Below, piece by piece: positions 1,595 through 25,237 of a stretch of DNA of 63,517 nt. The DNA lies in IMG/VR virus record IMGVR_UViG_3300025476_000001, positions 1 to 63,517 of that record, one strand, 5' to 3'. The translations under genes and the position numbers were made by a program. Below the pieces are notes generated by a model. It was not told where the DNA came from. It searched no databases and saw only the letters and a program-made list of their open reading frames with translations. Numbering within the stretch: position 1 is the stretch's first letter; every line of letters begins with the position of its first letter. This DNA is from a virus.

Positions 1595-2209
1595 ATGGTG
1601 TCTTCCAGTAGTGATAATGATGACGTACGGAAACTACCAGATAGAGTTATCCTGCGATTGTACAAGATTGAGTCAGAGTCCAAGTATATTGAAGTCATAC
1701 TTGATAGATATAAATATTTCATTCTCAAAGTAATAAGTAACTGGCACTTCCGCAACACTCATCACGTCAAACTGTATCAATCAGACTTTCAGGACGTTCA
1801 CCAATACGCAAAGTTAGCAGTAATGACGTTCATGGCCCGCGTTAAGAATATTTCCCATGTGAAGAATGTGTCTGTATCCATCAAATCATACATATACACA
1901 ATGTTGAACAAGTACTACAGGCATTGCAAGTACGAGTACCCCGATGAAGAAATATTTAAGAAAGCAGACAGAGAAGTTGAACCAGAAATAAATGATTTGA
2001 TGGACTTTGAAATAGTTAATTATGATATAATATTATTTCTAAAATATCAATATCGATACAACTACTACAAATTAGGTATGTTATTTACGAAGTTGAATAA
2101 ATCTCAATCAATGCAGAATTCAGTAGCTAATAGTGTCAAACGCAAGATAAAATATTTGAAGTGGGAATTGAAACGAAGAAACATGAATCAGATGCTGAAG
2201 TCGGAATAA
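1595..2209 (+). CDS. Divergent sigma-70-like factor
   Basis: A 204-residue protein with GTAGGAGAG just before the ATG. The middle reads like sigma region 2: a helix ILDRYKYFILKVISNW, then DFQDVHQYAKLAVMTFMARV in the place of the usual 'eDLxQeaxlaL' helix, then SIKSYIYTMLNKYYRHCK in place of the region 2.4 helix. The C-terminal third (IILFLKYQYRYNYYKLGMLF, then VANSVKRKIKYLKWELKRR) has the spacing of a region 4 helix-turn-helix. T4 uses a short sigma, gp55, for late transcription, and this gene sits upstream of the late block, so a late-promoter factor is plausible. Divergence is high. Confidence 0.45.
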   Translation: MVSSSSDNDDVRKLPDRVILRLYKIESESKYIEVILDRYKYFILKVISNWHFRNTHHVKLYQSDFQDVHQYAKLAVMTFMARVKNISHVKNVSVSIKSYIYTMLNKYYRHCKYEYPDEEIFKKADREVEPEINDLMDFEIVNYDIILFLKYQYRYNYYKLGMLFTKLNKSQSMQNSVANSVKRKIKYLKWELKRRNMNQMLKSE

Positions 2210-2454
2210 TCACTCTCCCCTAAAACTTTCCACGCAGGAACAATTATACCAACATATTCGTTAATTTATTTTTTATTAGAGATACTTTTTAGGCGGCAAG
2301 GTCATTTAATTAGTGACTAAGTCGCGTTGTTGTATTTGGAGTACAATTTTACTCTATATGAATAAAAAAGACAATCATTCTCTCCAAAATCTATTCGTTC
2401 CCTTTAACATAAAATTTTTTCATCGAAATACAAAAACGCAAGAGAGGTGTTATA
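2210..2454 (+). other. Non-coding AT-rich stretch before the terminase operon
   Basis: These 245 bases between the sigma-like gene and a 44-aa ORF contain no convincing ORF. They are very AT-rich, with T runs near 2270 and 2417, and TATATGAATA at about 2354-2363, loosely like the T4 late promoter core TATAAATA. It is the longest plain gap in the window and so the best place for a promoter of the head operon, but no element is strong enough to call. Confidence 0.3.
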
Positions 2455-2589
2455 ATGAGTGAGTTGGAAAAACTGTCTACCATAGTAAAGGAACAAGCTG
2501 TTCCAGTAGTACCTACTACTGAAACTCAGCAGCCTGAAACGCAGACTCAGGATGTTGCTGTTCAAGAAATGATGAATACACTTAGATAA
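2455..2589 (+). CDS. Small protein (44 aa), hypothetical
   Basis: A 44-residue ORF preceded by GAGAGGTG and ending in TAA directly before the ATG of the next gene (TAAATG). The N-terminal third looks helical (SELEKLSTIVKEQ), the middle is a Pro/Thr/Gln-rich linker, and the end is again helical (VQEMMNTLR). Function unknown. The ribosome site and the seamless junction support it being translated. Confidence 0.5.
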   Translation: MSELEKLSTIVKEQAVPVVPTTETQQPETQTQDVAVQEMMNTLR

Positions 2590-2952
2590 ATGAACGGTTT
2601 AGTATCTATATCAACGTTAGCAGCTAAGGCGCAGGCTGTCACTGTTGGCATGGCCGAAGGTGCGCTCAAAGATTTGACCATGTCAGAAGCCATGTACAAT
2701 AGATTAGTAATAATGATAGATGATCCTGATAACAAAGAGGCCAAATCACCGTACCTATTGCTTGAAGTCATCAAACTTAAAGAACAAATGGCAGTCACTA
2801 AATCTAAACTCGTAATGGACTTGACGATAGCATTAAAAGGTAAGTCTGCATTAGCATCATCGCAGGGTGAAGATTATGTGAGACCAATGATAGATTTGTC
2901 AGGAATTCCTATTGAAGAACGTGAAAGTTTGAGAGAGGGTATGCCAGCATGA
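2590..2952 (+). CDS. Hypothetical protein upstream of terminase (120 aa)
   Basis: Mostly helical: an Ala/Val-rich first half, then SPYLLLEVIKLKEQMAVTKSK, which could form a coiled coil. It starts right after the TAA of the preceding ORF and overlaps the next start (ATGATAT). Its place two genes before the large terminase and its small helical nature would suit a terminase small subunit, but no helix-turn-helix is evident. I do not recognise the family. Confidence 0.55.
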   Translation: MNGLVSISTLAAKAQAVTVGMAEGALKDLTMSEAMYNRLVIMIDDPDNKEAKSPYLLLEVIKLKEQMAVTKSKLVMDLTIALKGKSALASSQGEDYVRPMIDLSGIPIEERESLREGMPA

Positions 2953-3479
2953 TATATACAAAAGCTGAGTTAATTGAAGTATTTAGAACAATTGGATACA
3001 ATGCCCATCTGAACGGTTCAGTATTCACAAATCTGACGTCTGCAGATTTCAAACGTATGGACAAAGAGATGTTATATTGTCCTAAGTGCAAGAGTGCAGT
3101 TCGCATTTTGGTGCGTGTCAGCGGTACCTGGGCGTGTCTCAAATGCAACAATGCTAGTATAAGTAGCAATTATAAGAAGTTGAGAGCTACTATCATAGTC
3201 AACGATTTGATTGCATATTTTGGGGAGAATATTACGTCTGAACAATTGTTTGACTCTGATGTTATAGACGGTTTCATTAGATTTTGTGATTTGGAACATT
3301 CTCCATGGTATTATTTAGCATTTATGCAATTGCACGAGGCAATTATGGAGAAGGAATTGTCCATGTATAAGATTGTTCCATTTATGGCTCAGAAACGCGC
3401 AAGGCTTGACGAAATATTCAAAAAGGAACCAAAAGAGAAACCTACTTCTAATGAACGAAAATCTGAAACGACAGCTTGA
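2949..3479 (+). CDS. Zinc-ribbon protein preceding terminase (176 aa)
   Basis: Begins inside the end of the previous gene (ATGA overlap). Residues 43-66 hold two CxxC pairs (CPKC and CLKC, 19 residues apart), a zinc ribbon. The rest is helical with an aromatic patch (DLEHSPWYYLAFMQLHEAIM) and ends in a Lys/Glu-rich tail overlapping the terminase start. It may be a terminase accessory or DNA-binding protein; that is inferred only from position and the zinc site. Confidence 0.6.
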   Translation: MIYTKAELIEVFRTIGYNAHLNGSVFTNLTSADFKRMDKEMLYCPKCKSAVRILVRVSGTWACLKCNNASISSNYKKLRATIIVNDLIAYFGENITSEQLFDSDVIDGFIRFCDLEHSPWYYLAFMQLHEAIMEKELSMYKIVPFMAQKRARLDEIFKKEPKEKPTSNERKSETTA

Positions 3480-5463
3480 GTTAGATCCTAAACTTCGAGA
3501 GGAACTTTGGCGCATAGACTACCTCGAGAAGCCAGTTGATATTGATACCTTTATATGTAATCCTTATTATTTGGGTAGATCTACCGATAAGGGTAATCGC
3601 GTATATCCTGTTTGGCGCGATACATTACGGCGCGTATTCAATGATAAAGATATAACCGAAGTTATTTTGACTGGAAGCATCGGTGGTGGCAAAACTTCGT
3701 GTGCTGTATTAGCAATGTCATATGTAACATATCGTACGTTGTGTCTACGTAATCCCTACGAATATTACAACTTACTGGTTGGAAAACCGTTGTCCATAGT
3801 GTTCTTCTCGGTCAAACTATCATTGTCCTCATCTACAGCATTCATGGCATATCAACGCATGATGCAGAATTCTCAGTGGTTTTTGGAACGCGGCGAACTT
3901 CGTGGAACTGTCGATCCAGTAATACATTTTCCATTAATAGATTATAAATTAGGATCTCCTAGAGCATCGGGTATGGGTTCTGTGGGCGCTGATGTTATAA
4001 GTGCCTGCCTCGATGAAATTAATGCTCCCGGTGAAGCAGTGTCTATGAAACAGCGCGTATTCAATATGTATCAGGGTACTGTGCGACGTATTGGTTCGCG
4101 TTTTATGAAGTCTGGTGGTAAATTGCCTAGCATTATGAAAATGTTTCTGTGTGCGTCTAAAGATGACGAATTGTCATTTGTAGATAAATATATAGAACAC
4201 AAAAAGAATTCTGTTAACGTATGTATCATCGATAAACCTATTTGGGAGATTAAGCCAGGCAATTATTCAGGCGTGACTTTCCCAGTAGTATTGGGTGACA
4301 AATATCATGATCCAAAGATAATTACAGATGCTCAGAGAGTTGACTATGCAGACCAAAAAATTGTCAATATTCCGATAGAACATTTGGAAGAGTTTAGATT
4401 CAATCTCATCGGTGCATTGCGTGATTGTGCAGGGTTAACTACCAAAGGACTTCGAAAACAGAAACTGTTTCAAAATATTGAGTCGTTGACTGACTGTTAT
4501 GATGAGACTGCAACGCATCCATTTTCCAAGACCGAAATCGAGTTCGATTTGTTGTCAGAAGACAACATTATTAATTATTTCAAACTGTCAGATATTAAAG
4601 TAGATAGATCGGTGCCACGATTTATACATATAGACGTGGGCGTATCACACGATAGTACAGGCATTGCGTGTTCGTATGTTGCGGGTGTTCAGGAGTCTGT
4701 GTCGGAATCTTTAGATGGACAATTGTTAGTAAATAAATTGCCCGTTATTAATACTGAATGGGTGATTCGCGTGAATCCGCGAGTTGGCTCTCAAATACCT
4801 ATCGCGAAGATTAAGAAGTTTATATTGGACTTATATAATTTAGGATTTAATATTGCAAAGGTTACTACCGACGGATATCAGTCAACAGATTTACAACAGA
4901 CATTCATACGCGCAAATATTCCATCAGAGTTGTTGTCAGTAGATAAGACTCCTGATGCGTATATTGATTTGCGCGATTTGGTGTCTAGCAGGCGTTGGTC
5001 ATGTTATAAATATGAAAGATTGCACTTCGAACTGTACAATCTCGAAGTGGATTCTCTGACGGGAAAGATTAATCACCCTGAAATCGTCAAAGATTTGGAT
5101 GCTAATATGTCCGAATTCGTAGTCGAGGGAACAAAAGACTGCTCGGATGCCGTTGCAGCGTCAGTGCATATGGCTATTGCAGAACTTCCGAACGTAGTTG
5201 ACGAAGTAGCAATAGCTGATGCCTTTACTAAATTCAGGTCGAGAGTAAAAAAGAATGAGACGGAGTTGACAGTCAGAAGCATGTTCAAAGTTGATGGACA
5301 TGAGATGGTTGGTGTCAAGACTGGGCCGAACTTCGAACGTTTTAGTTCTATTTTAGATCAGATACACAATCGAAGAAACGATGATGATGCTCCGAAAGCA
5401 ATTAGAAAAGATGAATACAAAGATGGGAACGAAACCTTTAATTCCAAGGAAGGTACTAAATGA
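3451..5463 (+). CDS. Large terminase subunit (packaging ATPase-nuclease)
   Basis: A 670-residue DNA-packaging motor, comparable to T4 gp17 (610). The ATPase half has Walker A GSIGGGKT (K81, T82) and Walker B ISACLDE (D188, E189). The nuclease half shows RNase H-fold acids: FIHIDVGVSHDSTG (D395), VTTDGYQSTD (D474) and CSDAVAASVHMA (D566). An in-frame ATG lies 78 bases upstream at 3373, but it would overlap the preceding gene by 107 bases; the ATG at 3451 overlaps by 29 and begins a typical charged N-terminus. It packages DNA through the portal encoded next, whose start overlaps this stop (ATGA). Confidence 0.93.
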   Translation: MNENLKRQLELDPKLREELWRIDYLEKPVDIDTFICNPYYLGRSTDKGNRVYPVWRDTLRRVFNDKDITEVILTGSIGGGKTSCAVLAMSYVTYRTLCLRNPYEYYNLLVGKPLSIVFFSVKLSLSSSTAFMAYQRMMQNSQWFLERGELRGTVDPVIHFPLIDYKLGSPRASGMGSVGADVISACLDEINAPGEAVSMKQRVFNMYQGTVRRIGSRFMKSGGKLPSIMKMFLCASKDDELSFVDKYIEHKKNSVNVCIIDKPIWEIKPGNYSGVTFPVVLGDKYHDPKIITDAQRVDYADQKIVNIPIEHLEEFRFNLIGALRDCAGLTTKGLRKQKLFQNIESLTDCYDETATHPFSKTEIEFDLLSEDNIINYFKLSDIKVDRSVPRFIHIDVGVSHDSTGIACSYVAGVQESVSESLDGQLLVNKLPVINTEWVIRVNPRVGSQIPIAKIKKFILDLYNLGFNIAKVTTDGYQSTDLQQTFIRANIPSELLSVDKTPDAYIDLRDLVSSRRWSCYKYERLHFELYNLEVDSLTGKINHPEIVKDLDANMSEFVVEGTKDCSDAVAASVHMAIAELPNVVDEVAIADAFTKFRSRVKKNETELTVRSMFKVDGHEMVGVKTGPNFERFSSILDQIHNRRNDDDAPKAIRKDEYKDGNETFNSKEGTK

Positions 5464-8396
5464 ATGTATTAGATTTCCTGAAAAAACAATTTCGACCAAT
5501 CAAAGGCGTTACCATTCCAGCGGCACAAGTACCTCCTTTAATTAAAAGTGACGCATCCGCTGACTTCGTCAATAAGTTTGGAGTAGTTACGTCTGATTTG
5601 CGTCAGATATTACAAGATCAATCATTAGTTCTTTACGAGCGCAGTCAGATTTATCAATCAATAGATAGATCTCTCGTTCATCCTCTCATGTCAGCTGCGT
5701 GTAGTATTTACGCGGACACCGCTACAGTGCGTTCTCCTCTTCACGAATCCACCGTTTGGGTTACATCTAAATCGAAAGAGTATACATATCACATCGAAAA
5801 GATGTTTGACATAATAAACATGGAAGAAGTAATATATGACTGGGCGTGGTCTATTGCTACGTTTGGTGATCAGTTCGTGCAACTTTATGGTGAGCCTGGT
5901 GTAGGATTAGTGTCAGTTAACGACGATAATCATCCAATTAATATTTCGAGAGTAGATTACAATGGTAGATTGATAGGTTTCTATGAGACGCCGTTAGGAT
6001 ATTCTGTTGCAGACGAACGCAAATTAATGACTCCCTGGGATTACTGTCACCTTAGACTTCTCGGGGCAAAAAGAAGAAGACCGATTTACGCAGATCCACA
6101 ATATTCAGAATTCAGATGCCTGACCGGCAATACTGAAATTATGCTTCTTAACAATAAATCTGTTAGAATGACCGAAATGGAACAAAGAAAAGAAAATTAT
6201 TTAGGAAAGTACGTTTGGTCTATAAATCCAATTACACTGGAATTGGAACCAGACAGAATAGTTGATGTAAGAAAAACAAAACTTAATGCAGAACTTGTAC
6301 GAGTTCATCTTGATAATGATGAGTTTATAGATTGTACACCTGATCATAAATTTATGCTACGCGATGGTTCATTCGTAGAAGCACAGAATCTGCAATCTAA
6401 TGTGTCTCTTATGCCATATTATCCAAAACCAGTAAGTTTTGGTAAGTATAATTACGTGTACAATCCCGGCATTCGAAAATATGTAAATGAACACGTACTT
6501 GTCGCAGAATTTGTTGGTGGAAGAAAGGTTAAATCTGACGAAGTTGTTCATCATAGAGATTTTAACGGAATGAACAACGACCCGTCAAATTTAGTAATAT
6601 TAGATAGAAAGGTTCATTCTGATTTTCATATAAAGATTAACAAAAGAAGATGGGTAGACGAGAAGTACAGAGCAAAAGTGATACCGAAACTAAGCAAGGC
6701 AAGTAATAGAATGTGGGCAGATGAAAAATACAGACAGAATCAACTATCAGGATGCAAACAGGCATGGGAGAATAACGACGAACGCAGAGATAAATTATCT
6801 AAGAGTGCTCTTGATTTGTGGAAGAACGACGAATACAGAAACAAAATTATAGACAAATCTAAAATTAACGGAAATAAGTCGGAGATAAAAACGAAACTTT
6901 CTATCTCTTCTAATAGAAACTGGAGTAATTCTGCATACAGAGAAAAGATGCGGTTGAGAGACGAGAATGAAAGAATAAAAGCTCAAGAAAAGAGATTGGA
7001 ATTATTTAATAAGATAGAAGAGTTTGTAGTTAATAATATAGATCGATTGAATAGCGTTGATTGTCTGAATGTTGAAGTTTATAAATTGTTTGGTACATCA
7101 TCGCATCAGGTGTGGAAAGTTATAAAACAATTTACTAATCTTACAGTTGGACAATATCTTGAACTTAATAAGAAAAGACAGCTAATACACAATCATAAGG
7201 TTGTTAGAGTAGAACGTTTGACTAATCGTGAAGATACGTACGACATTCAAACAGAAAGAAATCATAATTTTCCGTTGAAACAAGGTGTGTTTGTTCACAA
7301 TTCAATCAGTATAATGACCCCCGATATACGACGCCTCACCAGCAAGTATGGCCAAAGTGTATTAGCAGATGCTCTTCCCATTTATAAACGTCTTCGTTTG
7401 GCTGAAGATTCAATACTGATGGCGCGTATTTCGCGTGGAATTCTTAGATATATTTATAAGGTGGCGGTGGAAGGCAACAACAACGAAGCAGTGGCCAAAA
7501 TCATTGACAATTACGTTGATGAGTTGAAACGCGCAAGAGCGTTGAATGTTGATCCGAACAATCCGAATTATGTTGACAGATATCAGGCATTGGCAGGCAT
7601 TGAAGATATAATTATGCCAGTGTGGAAAGATGTCAATTCAGTTGCAGTTGAGAAGATTGGTGGAGAGGTTGACATTCGTTGGATTGTAGATGTCACCGAA
7701 CTTATTAAACAGTTATCCACTGCGTTGAAAGTACCTTTACCCTTATTAGCTGGATATGCGGAACAGGCACCTCCTTCGTTGGGGAACGGTTCAATCGAGA
7801 GATTGGACATTCGCTTCGCCAGACAGTCTCGACGCATTCAACGTGCAATAATTAATGGTCTGACGCGCATGGCGCAAATACATTTAGCATATCAAGGTAT
7901 GGATCCAGATTTGAATTTATTTCAGATTCAGATGGCTGAGACGTCCTCCGCAGAAGAGGAAGAGTTAAAGAACGCACTTGATACTGGAGTCGATGTTGCT
8001 ACAAAATTAGCCGAACTCTGGGAAAAAATGATTGGTCCAGACGCAGACAAAATGGAGATTTTAGACTATCTGAATAAGAAACTGTTGAAACTGAACGACG
8101 CAGACCTTCAGAAGTTTATCAAAAAGGTTAATCCCAACGCATTCACAGAGCCACGTACTGAAGAGTTGGTTCCGGGCGTTGAAACTCCTGAGAAGAAGGA
8201 AGAACCGGCGGCGAACCCGTTTAGAGAATCGGTTTCCGTTTCGGATTTGAAGTCGGCATTACCGAGGACGGTGAAAGAAGTAAAGATTAATGAAACTACT
8301 ACAATCAGAACTGGTTGCAACGAAGATTGGGAAACAAATTGGGGCAATAAAATCGTCAAAATTACTCCTTGCGAGGACAAAGAAAATGTCAAGTAA
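5460..8396 (+). CDS. Portal protein precursor interrupted by an intein
   Basis: A 978-residue precursor. Residues 1-219 and 615-978 are the portal; 220-614 are an intein. After splicing the portal is 583 residues, near T4 gp20 (524). Portal evidence: position directly after terminase (ATGA overlap), an N-terminal arm, the clip/stem region (PDIRRLTSKYGQSVLADALP, then RISRGILRYIYKV), and DVTELIKQLSTALKVPLPLL before the crown. The C-terminus is acidic and Pro-rich. The portal forms the dodecameric ring through which DNA enters the head, so without excision no functional portal would form. Confidence 0.88.
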   Translation: MNVLDFLKKQFRPIKGVTIPAAQVPPLIKSDASADFVNKFGVVTSDLRQILQDQSLVLYERSQIYQSIDRSLVHPLMSAACSIYADTATVRSPLHESTVWVTSKSKEYTYHIEKMFDIINMEEVIYDWAWSIATFGDQFVQLYGEPGVGLVSVNDDNHPINISRVDYNGRLIGFYETPLGYSVADERKLMTPWDYCHLRLLGAKRRRPIYADPQYSEFRCLTGNTEIMLLNNKSVRMTEMEQRKENYLGKYVWSINPITLELEPDRIVDVRKTKLNAELVRVHLDNDEFIDCTPDHKFMLRDGSFVEAQNLQSNVSLMPYYPKPVSFGKYNYVYNPGIRKYVNEHVLVAEFVGGRKVKSDEVVHHRDFNGMNNDPSNLVILDRKVHSDFHIKINKRRWVDEKYRAKVIPKLSKASNRMWADEKYRQNQLSGCKQAWENNDERRDKLSKSALDLWKNDEYRNKIIDKSKINGNKSEIKTKLSISSNRNWSNSAYREKMRLRDENERIKAQEKRLELFNKIEEFVVNNIDRLNSVDCLNVEVYKLFGTSSHQVWKVIKQFTNLTVGQYLELNKKRQLIHNHKVVRVERLTNREDTYDIQTERNHNFPLKQGVFVHNSISIMTPDIRRLTSKYGQSVLADALPIYKRLRLAEDSILMARISRGILRYIYKVAVEGNNNEAVAKIIDNYVDELKRARALNVDPNNPNYVDRYQALAGIEDIIMPVWKDVNSVAVEKIGGEVDIRWIVDVTELIKQLSTALKVPLPLLAGYAEQAPPSLGNGSIERLDIRFARQSRRIQRAIINGLTRMAQIHLAYQGMDPDLNLFQIQMAETSSAEEEELKNALDTGVDVATKLAELWEKMIGPDADKMEILDYLNKKLLKLNDADLQKFIKKVNPNAFTEPRTEELVPGVETPEKKEEPAANPFRESVSVSDLKSALPRTVKEVKINETTTIRTGCNEDWETNWGNKIVKITPCEDKENVK
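6117..7301 (+). mobile_element. Intein with HNH homing endonuclease, inside the portal gene
   Basis: 395 codons in frame with the portal. Splicing residues are all present: C220 starting CLTGNTEI (block A), CTPDHKFML with T293 and H296 (block B), VRVERLTNREDTYDIQTERN (block F), and GVFVHN ending in H613-N614, followed by S615 as the +1 nucleophile (block G). Between them lies an HNH domain (EVVHHRDFNGMNNDPSNL, H364/H365, N372/N373, then H386 and H390). Three W-(x)-D/N-E-Y-R repeats (WVDEKYR, WADEKYR, WKNDEYR) follow, like modular DNA-binding segments. The intein therefore looks intact for both splicing and homing. Confidence 0.93.
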
Positions 8397-22682: not shown

Positions 22683-24158
22683 ATGAGTAAAGCTATACAG
22701 GAATTAGTCGAATCGAGAATGGCTGCTATGCAGTCTGATCGCAGGAGACTTACCGAGTCCTGGAAACCGTACATCGGTTCCGTGGATGCTTACCTCGCAA
22801 AGAGTGGGAAATCCCCTCTGACCGAGATGGATAAAATGAACATGGCGCGTTGCCTTGAGAACGCTCTGTTAGAAGGTGGAGTTCGCTCCAAGTCGAAGAT
22901 TTTTGAAACGACCGATAGCTCTGCTATCTCCTTCTTGGGCATTCAGTTGCCCGTAATCGCTGCCCTCTTGCCCAGCCTCGTGTTGAACAAGTTAGCAGTA
23001 ACCCAGGCATTAGATCGCAGATCTGGCGCAGTCTTTTATCTGGACGTGAAATACGGAACTGGTAAAGGCTCAGTTTCTGCTGCACAGGATATGATGAATG
23101 CACAGACTGGTCATAACTCGACCCTTGGTGGTCGTGAATATGCATCGGTTCGTGTTACCAACGAAGTGTACCCGGCAACAACTACGCCGCACACTCTTGC
23201 GTACTTCCCAGTAGTATCTGGATCTACCGTCATCACCGATAGCACAACTGGAAACGTGTTGACAGTCGTCTCATCCAGCGGTGGCGTGGATGTGTTAGCA
23301 TCTTCGCTTTCCTCGGGACATTCTGGAACCGTAACTCTAGCAACCGGCGTGGTAGTAATCAACGGTGGTGGGTTAAGTTATGCGGGTACTGTTTCTTATA
23401 TGTACGATTGGCAAACTGGTGGTGTTGGTGGTGTAACTACAGCGAACGTTCCTGAAGTTAATATCTCAGTCACCTCCGCAACAATCACTGCAGAGGATTT
23501 CCCGCTCAAAGCTTTGTTTACTCTTGGTGCTGCAATCGACCTCGAGAAGGCGCATGGTCTGAATCTTGAAGACGAGCTGGTGAAATATCTTGGTGGTGAA
23601 GTAAAGTTCACAATGGATCATCTGGGAATCGATTTAATGAACGCTGCCTCTCAGACGGTTGCTGCTGCGACTACACCTGGAACTTATACCGCGACACCGT
23701 CAGCTGGTGAAGCGTGGGTGTGGAAGAAATATCAGTTTCTGGATTTTGTAGAGAAAGCTAACGTGGCAATAATCTCTAAGACGTTACGTGCAGTTTGTAA
23801 CTTCTTAGTGGTTGGTAATAACACTGCCCGTCTCGTTCGTCAGTTGGATCCTCATTTCAAGCCAGCTTCTGGATTAGACACGTTAGTTCCTACCGGTCCT
23901 TACGAACTGGGTACTTTGGACGGCAGGCTCATTGTTCACGATCCGTTGTTAGGCGCTAATGAGATTCTGTTCGGATTCAAGGGTGACAATTATCTGTTTG
24001 CTGGATTCTTGTTTGCCCCGTATATTCCTTTATTTGCAACTCCGACACTCGTGACCGCTGATCTCAAGGCCCAGAAGGGTTTCTTGGCGTCTGCTGGCTA
24101 CAAAGTTGTGAATGCGGGCATGTACACCCATTCGACGATTAACTATGGATCATTATAA
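22683..24158 (+). CDS. Major capsid protein, gp23-like (unspliced reading; spliced form joins 22683-24131 to 24390-24416)
   Basis: 491 residues, HK97-fold capsid protein. The N-terminus (ESWKPYIG, then MARCLENALLEGG) parallels T4 gp23 (WKPLLEGEG, AKIFENQ), and L-L-E64|G65 fits the prohead-protease cleavage consensus at almost the same place as in T4. VTSATITAEDFPLKALFTLG then AAIDLEKAHGLNLEDELVKY matches the gp23 core. Residues about 160-245 are a Thr/Val/Gly-rich insertion, probably an outward beta domain. AAGGAGAAC precedes the ATG. Codons 484-491 and the stop lie inside a group I intron; splicing gives HGTMNYGSL instead of HSTINYGSL, with the same length. Confidence 0.93.
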   Translation: MSKAIQELVESRMAAMQSDRRRLTESWKPYIGSVDAYLAKSGKSPLTEMDKMNMARCLENALLEGGVRSKSKIFETTDSSAISFLGIQLPVIAALLPSLVLNKLAVTQALDRRSGAVFYLDVKYGTGKGSVSAAQDMMNAQTGHNSTLGGREYASVRVTNEVYPATTTPHTLAYFPVVSGSTVITDSTTGNVLTVVSSSGGVDVLASSLSSGHSGTVTLATGVVVINGGGLSYAGTVSYMYDWQTGGVGGVTTANVPEVNISVTSATITAEDFPLKALFTLGAAIDLEKAHGLNLEDELVKYLGGEVKFTMDHLGIDLMNAASQTVAAATTPGTYTATPSAGEAWVWKKYQFLDFVEKANVAIISKTLRAVCNFLVVGNNTARLVRQLDPHFKPASGLDTLVPTGPYELGTLDGRLIVHDPLLGANEILFGFKGDNYLFAGFLFAPYIPLFATPTLVTADLKAQKGFLASAGYKVVNAGMYTHSTINYGSL

Positions 24159-24389
24159 ACAATGTTAATCTACAGTGGCATTAAAAAGCGATTTTTAATG
24201 AAAACCTTGAATATGCTGGGATCTCTCAGAGATGAGACAATCAGCAGGGATAGCTTGAGCAGTCAAGAAGCCCTCAACGACTACCAAGAGGCATCTGATT
24301 TATCAGATGGTGGTATAGTCTGGTCTATGTAGTGATGCATAGAGATTGGCAGAAATGACCAATCCCACAGCAATGTGAGTAACAATACG
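24132..24389 (+). ncRNA. Group I intron at the 3' end of the major capsid gene
   Basis: 258 bases with a complete core. P1: exon CCAT (24128-24131) with GTGG (24175-24178), giving the U-G wobble at the splice site. P1 extension: GATTAAC/GTTAATC. P2: 9 bp, GCGA loop (24179-24200). P4: TGCTG/CAGCA (24214/24242). P5: ATCTC/GAGAT (24221/24229). P6a: CTTGA/TCAAG. P3: TTGA (24207)/TCAA (24274). P7: GACTA (24279-24283)/TAGTC (24316-24320). P8: CATCTGA/TCAGATG (24292/24303). P9 hairpins: CTATG/CATAG, GATTGG/CCAATC, and CACA-GCAA-TGTG. The terminal G is 24389. Splicing joins CAT to GGT in frame. No ORF of its own. Confidence 0.93.
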
Positions 24390-24416
24390 GGTACGATGAA
24401 CTACGGATCACTTTAA
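24390..24416 (+). other. Second (3') exon of the major capsid gene
   Basis: After the intron's terminal G, eight codons read GTMNYGSL and then TAA. They stay in frame with codon 483 (CAT) after splicing. The segment matches the first 29 bases of the intron at about 22 positions, and both copies are followed by TAAAC. Differences in the last codons are mostly silent (TAT/TAC, TTA/CTT), so both copies look selected as protein. Confidence 0.85.
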
Positions 24417-24423
24417 ACGTGAG

Positions 24424-24468
24424 TTAATAGGGAGAGGGAAGTTCACTTCTCTTTCCTCTCCCTATTAA
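24424..24468 (+). terminator. Strong hairpin after the capsid gene
   Basis: A perfect 14-bp stem: TTAATAGGGAGAGG (24424-24437) with CCTCTCCCTATTAA (24455-24468). The 17-base loop can form a further GAAG/CTTC pair. There is no long T run after it (TAAAAGAATG), so it may be a weak terminator, an mRNA 3'-end stabiliser for the abundant capsid message, or a structure that hides GGGAGAGGG from ribosomes and so limits expression of the endonuclease gene that starts 7 bases later. Confidence 0.75.
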
Positions 24469-24475
24469 TAAAAGA

Positions 24476-25237
24476 ATGAATAGAATTTGCAAAATCTGTA
24501 ACTTAGAGAAACCAATTGTTAAATTTAATAAGCAAGGCATATATTATAGACATATTTGCATGTCGTGTCAACATCTTAGACATAAGATGAGAAAACAATT
24601 AAGATTATGTAAATCTAAACAGAGAATCAACGAAGATGCGACTAATTTGATAAGAATTTGTAAAGTTTGCAAAGAATCAAAACACCTAATTGAATTTGAG
24701 AAACAGAATAGATGGCATAGACATATATGTAAGGTATGTTCTATTAATTACAAACGTGAACGTTATAGAATTAAGTATTCTAATTTAATTAATAGAGAGT
24801 TGAAGAGAGAAGATGAACATTATAGATATCCAAGATATGAGAATTCTAGAAGAAGACGTTATGCTAGTATGAAATATAAATTAAAATCAAGAATCAGACG
24901 TCACAATCGAAGAGTTGATGAAAAGAGTCTTACTGTAGAGATGATACAAATAGTTTATGAAGAGAATATCATAAAGTACGGTGCTCTTACCTGTGAATTA
25001 TGTTTTAAGCCAATCAAGTTTGGAGAAGACTCTCTTGAGCATTTTTATCCAGTCAGCAGAAAGAACGAATATCAAGGTAAAGATATAAATGAACGCTCTA
25101 ATCTTGGCGTTGCTCATGGTAATAATAGTGTAGAACGATGCAACGATAAGAAAGGAAATAAAACTTTAAATGAGTGGTTTCATATGAACGAAGTACTTCA
25201 TCAAGAATTGGCGAGGGTTAAAAATGTTATCTTCTGA
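24476..25237 (+). CDS. Free-standing HNH homing endonuclease
   Basis: 253 very basic residues. Two N-terminal zinc-finger repeats: C5/C8 with C28/C31, and C62/C65 with C85/C88, each with the pattern 'CKxC...F.K......RHIC..C'. The HNH nuclease is C-terminal: LTCELCFKP (C173, C176), SLEHFYPVSR (E188, H189), then RSNLGVAHGNNSVERCNDKK (N209, H214, C222). It lies just outside the group I intron, recalling phage S-PM2, where a free-standing endonuclease beside the psbA intron drives collaborative homing. Codons are AT-rich and AGA-rich, unlike the capsid gene, consistent with transfer. Its ribosome site is poor, and its end overlaps the next gene. Confidence 0.9.
   Translation: MNRICKICNLEKPIVKFNKQGIYYRHICMSCQHLRHKMRKQLRLCKSKQRINEDATNLIRICKVCKESKHLIEFEKQNRWHRHICKVCSINYKRERYRIKYSNLINRELKREDEHYRYPRYENSRRRRYASMKYKLKSRIRRHNRRVDEKSLTVEMIQIVYEENIIKYGALTCELCFKPIKFGEDSLEHFYPVSRKNEYQGKDINERSNLGVAHGNNSVERCNDKKGNKTLNEWFHMNEVLHQELARVKNVIF

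Follow-up and report, generated by a model that had tools for sequence, protein, structure and literature searches.

The question raised by this locus is how the gene for a phage's major capsid protein can carry a group I intron and read as complete with that intron either removed or retained. Group I introns in bacterial protein-coding genes are usually thought to be tolerated only through good splicing, with translation and splicing in conflict. The window (the whole stretch analysed) is a 63.5-kb virus record, in which the frame at 22683-24158 is a capsid gene of the Gp23 family (PF07068 Gp23, E = 3e-30; phrog_138, major head protein). The arrow below marks the splice site.

22683-24131, + strand: 5' exon of the major capsid protein gene, 483 codons, final codon CAT (PF07068, phrog_138)
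24132-24389, + strand: group I intron of 258 nt (RF00028), U.G at the 5' splice site, terminal G; predicted splicing restores H↓G
24132-24158, + strand: intronic copy of the capsid tail, STINYGSL and stop, 22/29 bases identical to the 3' exon
24390-24416, + strand: 3' exon, GTMNYGSL and stop, in frame once spliced; H↓G is kept in intronless relatives
24424-24468, + strand: terminator-like hairpin of the capsid gene, 18-bp stem (inverted repeat I1, 94% complementary)
24476-25237, + strand: free-standing HNH/endonuclease VII-like gene downstream of the capsid gene, putative homing partner

The initial annotation had placed a group I core at 24132-24389, matched the start of the intron to the exon tail at about 22 of 29 positions and counted 491 residues for either reading, and each of these statements held. 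Positions 24132-24160 and 24390-24418 are equal at 22 of 29 sites (a 26-nt direct repeat at 85%), and the protein comes to 491 residues each time, ending in HSTINYGSL when unspliced and in HGTMNYGSL when spliced. Rfam run on the whole 63.5 kb misses the intron because of its filter settings; on a short stretch, RF00028 matches 24157-24342 with 56.8 bits (E = 7e-14, P3-P9 present), above the curated gathering score of 50 bits. The RNA elements are as follows.

24157-24342, + strand: catalytic core P2/P3-P9 (Rfam alignment)
24279-24283 and 24316-24320, + strand: P7, GACTA with TAGTC (Rfam alignment)
24128-24132, + strand: P1 5' strand CCAU↓U, pairing with AGUGG at 24174-24178
24137-24143, + strand: 5' strand of the P1 extension, GATTAAC, inside the tail copy, 7 bp with GTTAATC at 24164-24170
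24164-24178, + strand: internal guide sequence, with the 3' strands of the P1 extension (24164-24170) and of P1 (24174-24178)

At the 5' splice site U24131 forms a wobble pair with G24175, and the last intron base is G24389. This P1 was the sole solution of a splice-site search that demanded a U before the splice, a terminal G, tails of equal length and a P1 helix with the U.G pair, and the P1 extension is also present in the centroid fold. As read from the sequence, TAC at 24171-24173 can pair with GTA at 24391-24393 of the 3' exon, a possible P10. The tail copy had been described as the P1 extension, which is accurate for GATTAAC; most of the copy, including the TAA at 24156-24158, is P1 loop. 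Pairing of this kind could by itself make the beginning of an ordinary group I intron resemble its 3' exon, both being matched to one guide through P1 and P10, and GTTAATC can indeed accept GATTAAC (7 of 7 pairs) as well as GATGAAC (6 of 7). A shared guide may explain the first few bases, but as an account of the full copy it is refuted, as the match continues through the unpaired loop to the stop and extends over 16-44 codons in the other cases described below; we regard it as a highly improbable explanation of the arrangement.

Three intronless relatives from IMG/VR (L001, L002 and L003; L numbers denote loci), with 69-83% identity to the window capsid protein, have one tail each, with the C-termini YTHGNITIV, YTHGSLVIV and CYGTISIT, respectively; a search of genome contigs for capsid relatives found none. 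None of the three ends naturally at the first NYGSL, and their ends (THGNITIV, THGSLVIV, CYGTISIT) fit the spliced form, in which the window regains H↓G as in L001 and L002. The spliced reading, and not the unspliced one, has the glycine conserved after the splice site, which identifies the downstream exon as the native tail and its intronic counterpart as the addition.

The 258-nt intron holds no endonuclease frame, so that its homing would need the separate HNH gene, which starts approximately 87 bp downstream of it. This gene matches phrog_1035 (endonuclease VII, E = 1.5e-8) and phrog_5718 (HNH, E = 2.5e-5), with no match in Pfam, and is missing between the equivalent genes of L001 and L002. 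Across the window and its relatives, the interval that separates the capsid gene from its downstream neighbour is an endonuclease hot spot: L003 has another endonuclease-like gene from about 6575, unlike that of the window, and the gaps of L001 and L002 are empty. By analogy with F-CphI, which serves the psbA intron of cyanophage S-PM2 according to the available text of that study (PMC6083498), the product of 24476-25237 is the likely candidate for the endonuclease of the window intron.

When substitutions were placed at random, with the same number of changed bases, amino-acid changes as few as those between the two window tails occurred in about 2% of trials (103/5000; 45/2000). Judged from sequence, the 8 codons of the window are by themselves only moderate evidence, and the weight is carried by eight other cases, which were sought for that reason. 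Distant capsid relatives and group I motif scans of part of IMG/VR were the inputs to a screen, independent of gene identity, for gene ends that occur as a pair on either side of an intron core; it yielded two further elements, L012 and L117. L012 is a second Gp23-type capsid gene, reached both as a capsid relative and through the motif scan. The gene in L117 lies in an HK97-type terminase-portal-protease module; its function as a capsid gene is putative, being assigned from gene order, with its phrog families carrying no functional annotation. Searching for capsids with L117 led to L299, and a search with the alignment of the L117/L299 family returned 80 loci. Seven distinct phages among them (L117, L299, L427, L428, L479, L491 and L497) have a duplicated tail after the gene; in the rest of this set, capsid genes with their end on the contig finish in a single intact tail. 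Six other hits of the tail-pair screen (L090, L116, L134, L329, L332 and L391) were rejected, their similarity being, by reading or by position, that of intron cores or repeats. No phage isolate with an L117/L299-type capsid, a similar endonuclease or a similar intron with a tail copy was found.

In total, nine phages carry the arrangement; it occupies five insertion sites, and between the two capsid families concerned no relationship in sequence was detected. The eight other cases occupy four sites beyond that of the window, and in each the copy represents the whole 3' exon, is closed by a stop codon and lies in the P1 loop. RF00028 exceeds its cut-off in 4 of the 9 introns (window, L117 with 56.5, L479 with 59.1 and L491 with 53.9 bits) and stays below it in L427 (44.6 bits) and L012 (fragments only, 20.6 and 15.1 bits); group I motifs were seen in L299 and L497 with no Rfam match obtained, and the Rfam scan of L428 gave no match. 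At the level of sequence, the spare-tail intron is thus a recurring design rather than a curiosity, and it seems to have arisen several times. All nine genomes are assembled contigs from uncultured metagenomic material, and an assembler might have fused two alleles of a gene end. The joined pieces, however, make group I introns with splice sites in register, L011 and L012 are identical from two assemblies, and L427 and L429 share the layout in two, which makes an artefact of this kind scarcely credible.

The order of elements is the same in all nine: 5' exon, tail copy with stop, guide sequence, core and 3' exon. The constrained search left few solutions per case, and in 9 of 9 one of them restores the consensus of the family. 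In addition to H↓G in the window, the restored junctions read CPYIPLF in L012, NIYQQFG in L117 (as in the intronless relative L295), DMNPTPPQW in L299 and L428, ELYQQFG/ELYQQYG in L479, L491 and L497, and QQFGMIIDRADG in L427. At the HK97-type site common to L117, L479, L491 and L497, the split codon is T↓AT (Tyr) when spliced; unspliced, it is T↓TT (Phe) in L117, L479 and L491 and T↓AC (Tyr) in L497. Higher-scoring P1 helices were available in L117 (guide at 6075) and in L427 (guide at 4403), but were discarded for their distance from the core or for disrupting the junction consensus. Translation straight through the intron in frame was likewise rejected: 6 of the 9 lengths are not divisible by 3, and all introns have a stop after the tail copy.

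Endonuclease-like frames occur within the introns of L012, L117, L299, L427, L428, L491 and L497, and in L117, L427, L491 and L497 much of the frame lies in the P1 loop, where the tail copy lies in every case. In L117 (5821-5828) the endonuclease ATG stands two bases past the stop of the tail copy, which suggests translational coupling on the unspliced mRNA, so that this mRNA could also serve the endonuclease. The NUMOD3-containing frame of L012 (4426-5442) has no stop of its own; it crosses P7 and the splice site and ends fused in frame to the capsid tail.

Each copy is diverged from its own 3' exon in DNA and conserved in protein. Nucleotide identity is 59-77%, pS ranges from 0.49 to 1.13 and pN from 0.10 to 0.23, with a pooled pN/pS of 0.17, or 0.12 when the first four codons are omitted; in 8 of the 9 cases random substitution never reached the observed conservation (0/2000 each). 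In L012, 26 synonymous differences over 44 codons are accompanied by one amino-acid difference. Amino-acid differences are concentrated in the first four codons past the splice site (17/36 versus 20/180; Fisher 3e-6), a stretch in which the RNA has to suit the P1 region as well. The ends of the tails differ among related phages (LKVS, LKLA, DITSLA, GGLS, DNVTA), and within a phage the copies match exactly or nearly so, as the window copy carries the NYGSL of its own native tail. Frameshifts or internal stops are found in none of the nine copies, and the native 3' exons are intact in all nine. Both the spliced and the unspliced form thus look selected on this sequence signature; the low pN/pS could partly stem from selection at the time when the tail was the true gene end of a donor phage, before its capture.

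A functionless duplication or capture of DNA, for instance during break repair, would leave protein similarity as a mere remnant. The shortness of the window copy would suit such an event, as would the recombination near intron ends that homing entails. Near-saturated synonymous sites combined with conserved amino acids nevertheless rule out that the same tail was duplicated recently, the copies bear no disruptive mutation, and the layout recurs at five sites with both tails always sharing the position of the stop; we therefore consider this origin very unlikely.

Two of the HK97-type phages bear on whether splicing itself matters. L479 and L491 have cores 97% identical and capsid exons 72% identical, indicating that the intron moved between such phages recently. 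The exon strand of P1 is AGUUGU in one and AGCUGU in the other, a change mirrored by the guides GCAACU and GCAGCU. Between the two phages, the tail copies agree at 83% and the native tails at 72%; the copy, with 83% against 97% for the cores, does not simply move unchanged with the core. On these small numbers, the copy seems to be carried along by the intron and to track the new host thereafter.

The strongest competitor is an alternative gene end created by insertion, in which the foreign C-terminus of an endonuclease element replaced the native one, splicing does not work and the downstream tail is not expressed. Such a replacement has been proposed for fungal mitochondrial atp6 and cox2, which share the layout and where, in the available text of the reports, duplicated C-termini flank an endonuclease (PMC3630166, PMC4019555), and the L479 copy resembles the L491 native tail in places. 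On the other hand, group I cores with P1 and U.G pairing are retained, the guide changes together with the exon, splicing restores consensus residues at the junction in every case, and the native tails all remain intact while synonymous sites between the copies approach saturation. Splicing itself looks selected from these comparisons, and we hold replacement by insertion to be unlikely.

Capsid introns near the gene end comprise the nine with a spare tail and two without, in L014 (about 47 codons from the end, no tail copy) and in Vibrio phage 1.232.O; the spare tail is thus not obligatory for introns in this position. Introns farther upstream lack a copy (the first intron of L012, two in L021, that of SP-15 and the first introns of L491, L492, L495 and L497), and the association of position with spare tail is 9:1 versus 0:8 (Fisher p = 0.0004), in a non-random sample in which several introns are related by descent and in which the Vibrio phage, not counted in, would weaken it somewhat. 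The capsid genes of L491, L492, L495, L497, L012 and L021 illustrate that extra upstream group I-type introns, with no copied sequence, are frequent. In Vibrio phage 1.232.O, a cultured isolate (L499; region 2002-3270 of MG592596.1), a group I-like intron close to the 3' end of the capsid gene is left without annotation, and the annotated capsid protein appears to end in the intron-encoded residues GVAWLH, with no tail copy.

We therefore favour, with a probability of roughly three in four, the reading that the group I intron of the window is of the mobile type and bears in its P1 loop a recoded, spare version of the capsid gene's 3' end, by which the most-needed late protein would be made independent of splicing. 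Ribosomes translating the precursor before or without splicing would run on across the 5' splice site, complete the capsid protein with the copied tail and terminate where the copy ends, ahead of the core and upstream of the guide sequence. Upon splicing, the native 3' exon would supply the tail, giving the same protein but for a few residues. As either outcome would complete the protein, capsid synthesis would never be cut short and no truncated, assembly-poisoning subunits would arise; the gene could tolerate the intron at any rate of splicing, and the intron, keeping its splice sites, could spread. Synonymous divergence of the copy may serve to avoid both recreation of the endonuclease target and recombination with the 3' exon. 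An in-frame stop near the 5' splice site has been viewed, in the available text of one report (PMC3984707), as an aid to folding, and in the spare-tail introns that stop would have come to lie where a full-length protein ends. The first proposal for the window, of a complete capsid protein encoded by spliced and unspliced mRNA alike, is supported there and far more by the eight like-organised introns. It is also reasonably probable that these introns form a recurrent phage class with built-in rescue, in which both splicing outcomes are functional and the unspliced mRNA is productive, in L117-type cases for capsid and endonuclease alike.

The conflict between translation and splicing would seemingly be settled by such introns, since the whole protein is obtained from both outcomes in the gene that the phage needs most, and the productivity of unspliced phage mRNA becomes a testable matter. 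Because the intronic stop closes a full-length frame, the genes look intact in databases and the introns are overlooked, a point of which annotators should be aware.

Several known systems share parts of this organisation. Cyanophage S-PM2 psbA, like the window gene, has a group I intron without an endonuclease beside a free-standing gene of the Endo VII/HNH type, F-CphI, a pair described as collaborative homing (PMC6083498, PMC5931967); its intron differs in having in-frame stops, its unspliced mRNA is thought not to encode working D1, and the available text mentions no spare tail (PMC5931967). Mycobacteriophage LittleE (cluster J) has what is probably a group I intron in its major capsid gene, with an endonuclease and with splicing demonstrated by RT-PCR (PMC3706429), but splicing takes place close to the position at which the capsid protein is cleaved on maturation, near where the mature protein begins, and a copy of the remaining gene is not described in the available part of that report. 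Capsid-gene introns are also present in SP-15 (KT624200) and Vibrio phage 1.232.O (MG592596), the latter likewise near the 3' end; a tail copy was looked for in both and not found. The accessible text of the open-access literature searched contains no report of a phage group I intron with a spare tail.

The closest parallel is offered by the mobile ORF elements of fungal mitochondria, known from Allomyces atp6 and Glomus atp6, atp9, cox2 and nad3 (PMC3630166) and, as duplicated C-terminus elements, from Phlebia atp6/cox2 (PMC4019555). In the available accounts these elements, like the phage introns, place an in-frame copy of the host 3' end, diverged in DNA and conserved in protein, upstream of the native end, usually with an endonuclease between the two. 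A copy of this kind is moderately evident in the window and strongly so in the eight other phages. The fungal copy, by contrast, replaces the native end, which is absent from the mRNA of atp6 and cox2 (PMC3630166, PMC4019555), and splicing of the host gene to the native tail is not described in the text available; in the phages the native end is not displaced, since the splice sites would join native tails that stay intact. The phage copy, moreover, sits in the P1 loop of an intron predicted to be able to join the native 3' exon, and the genes concerned encode capsid proteins. Recoded C-terminus elements of fungi and capsid introns of phages are thus already known, and what appears to be new, relative to the accessible literature and as predicted from sequence, is the spare-tail group I intron in a phage, which has its engineered counterpart in homing elements equipped with a recoded rescue copy.
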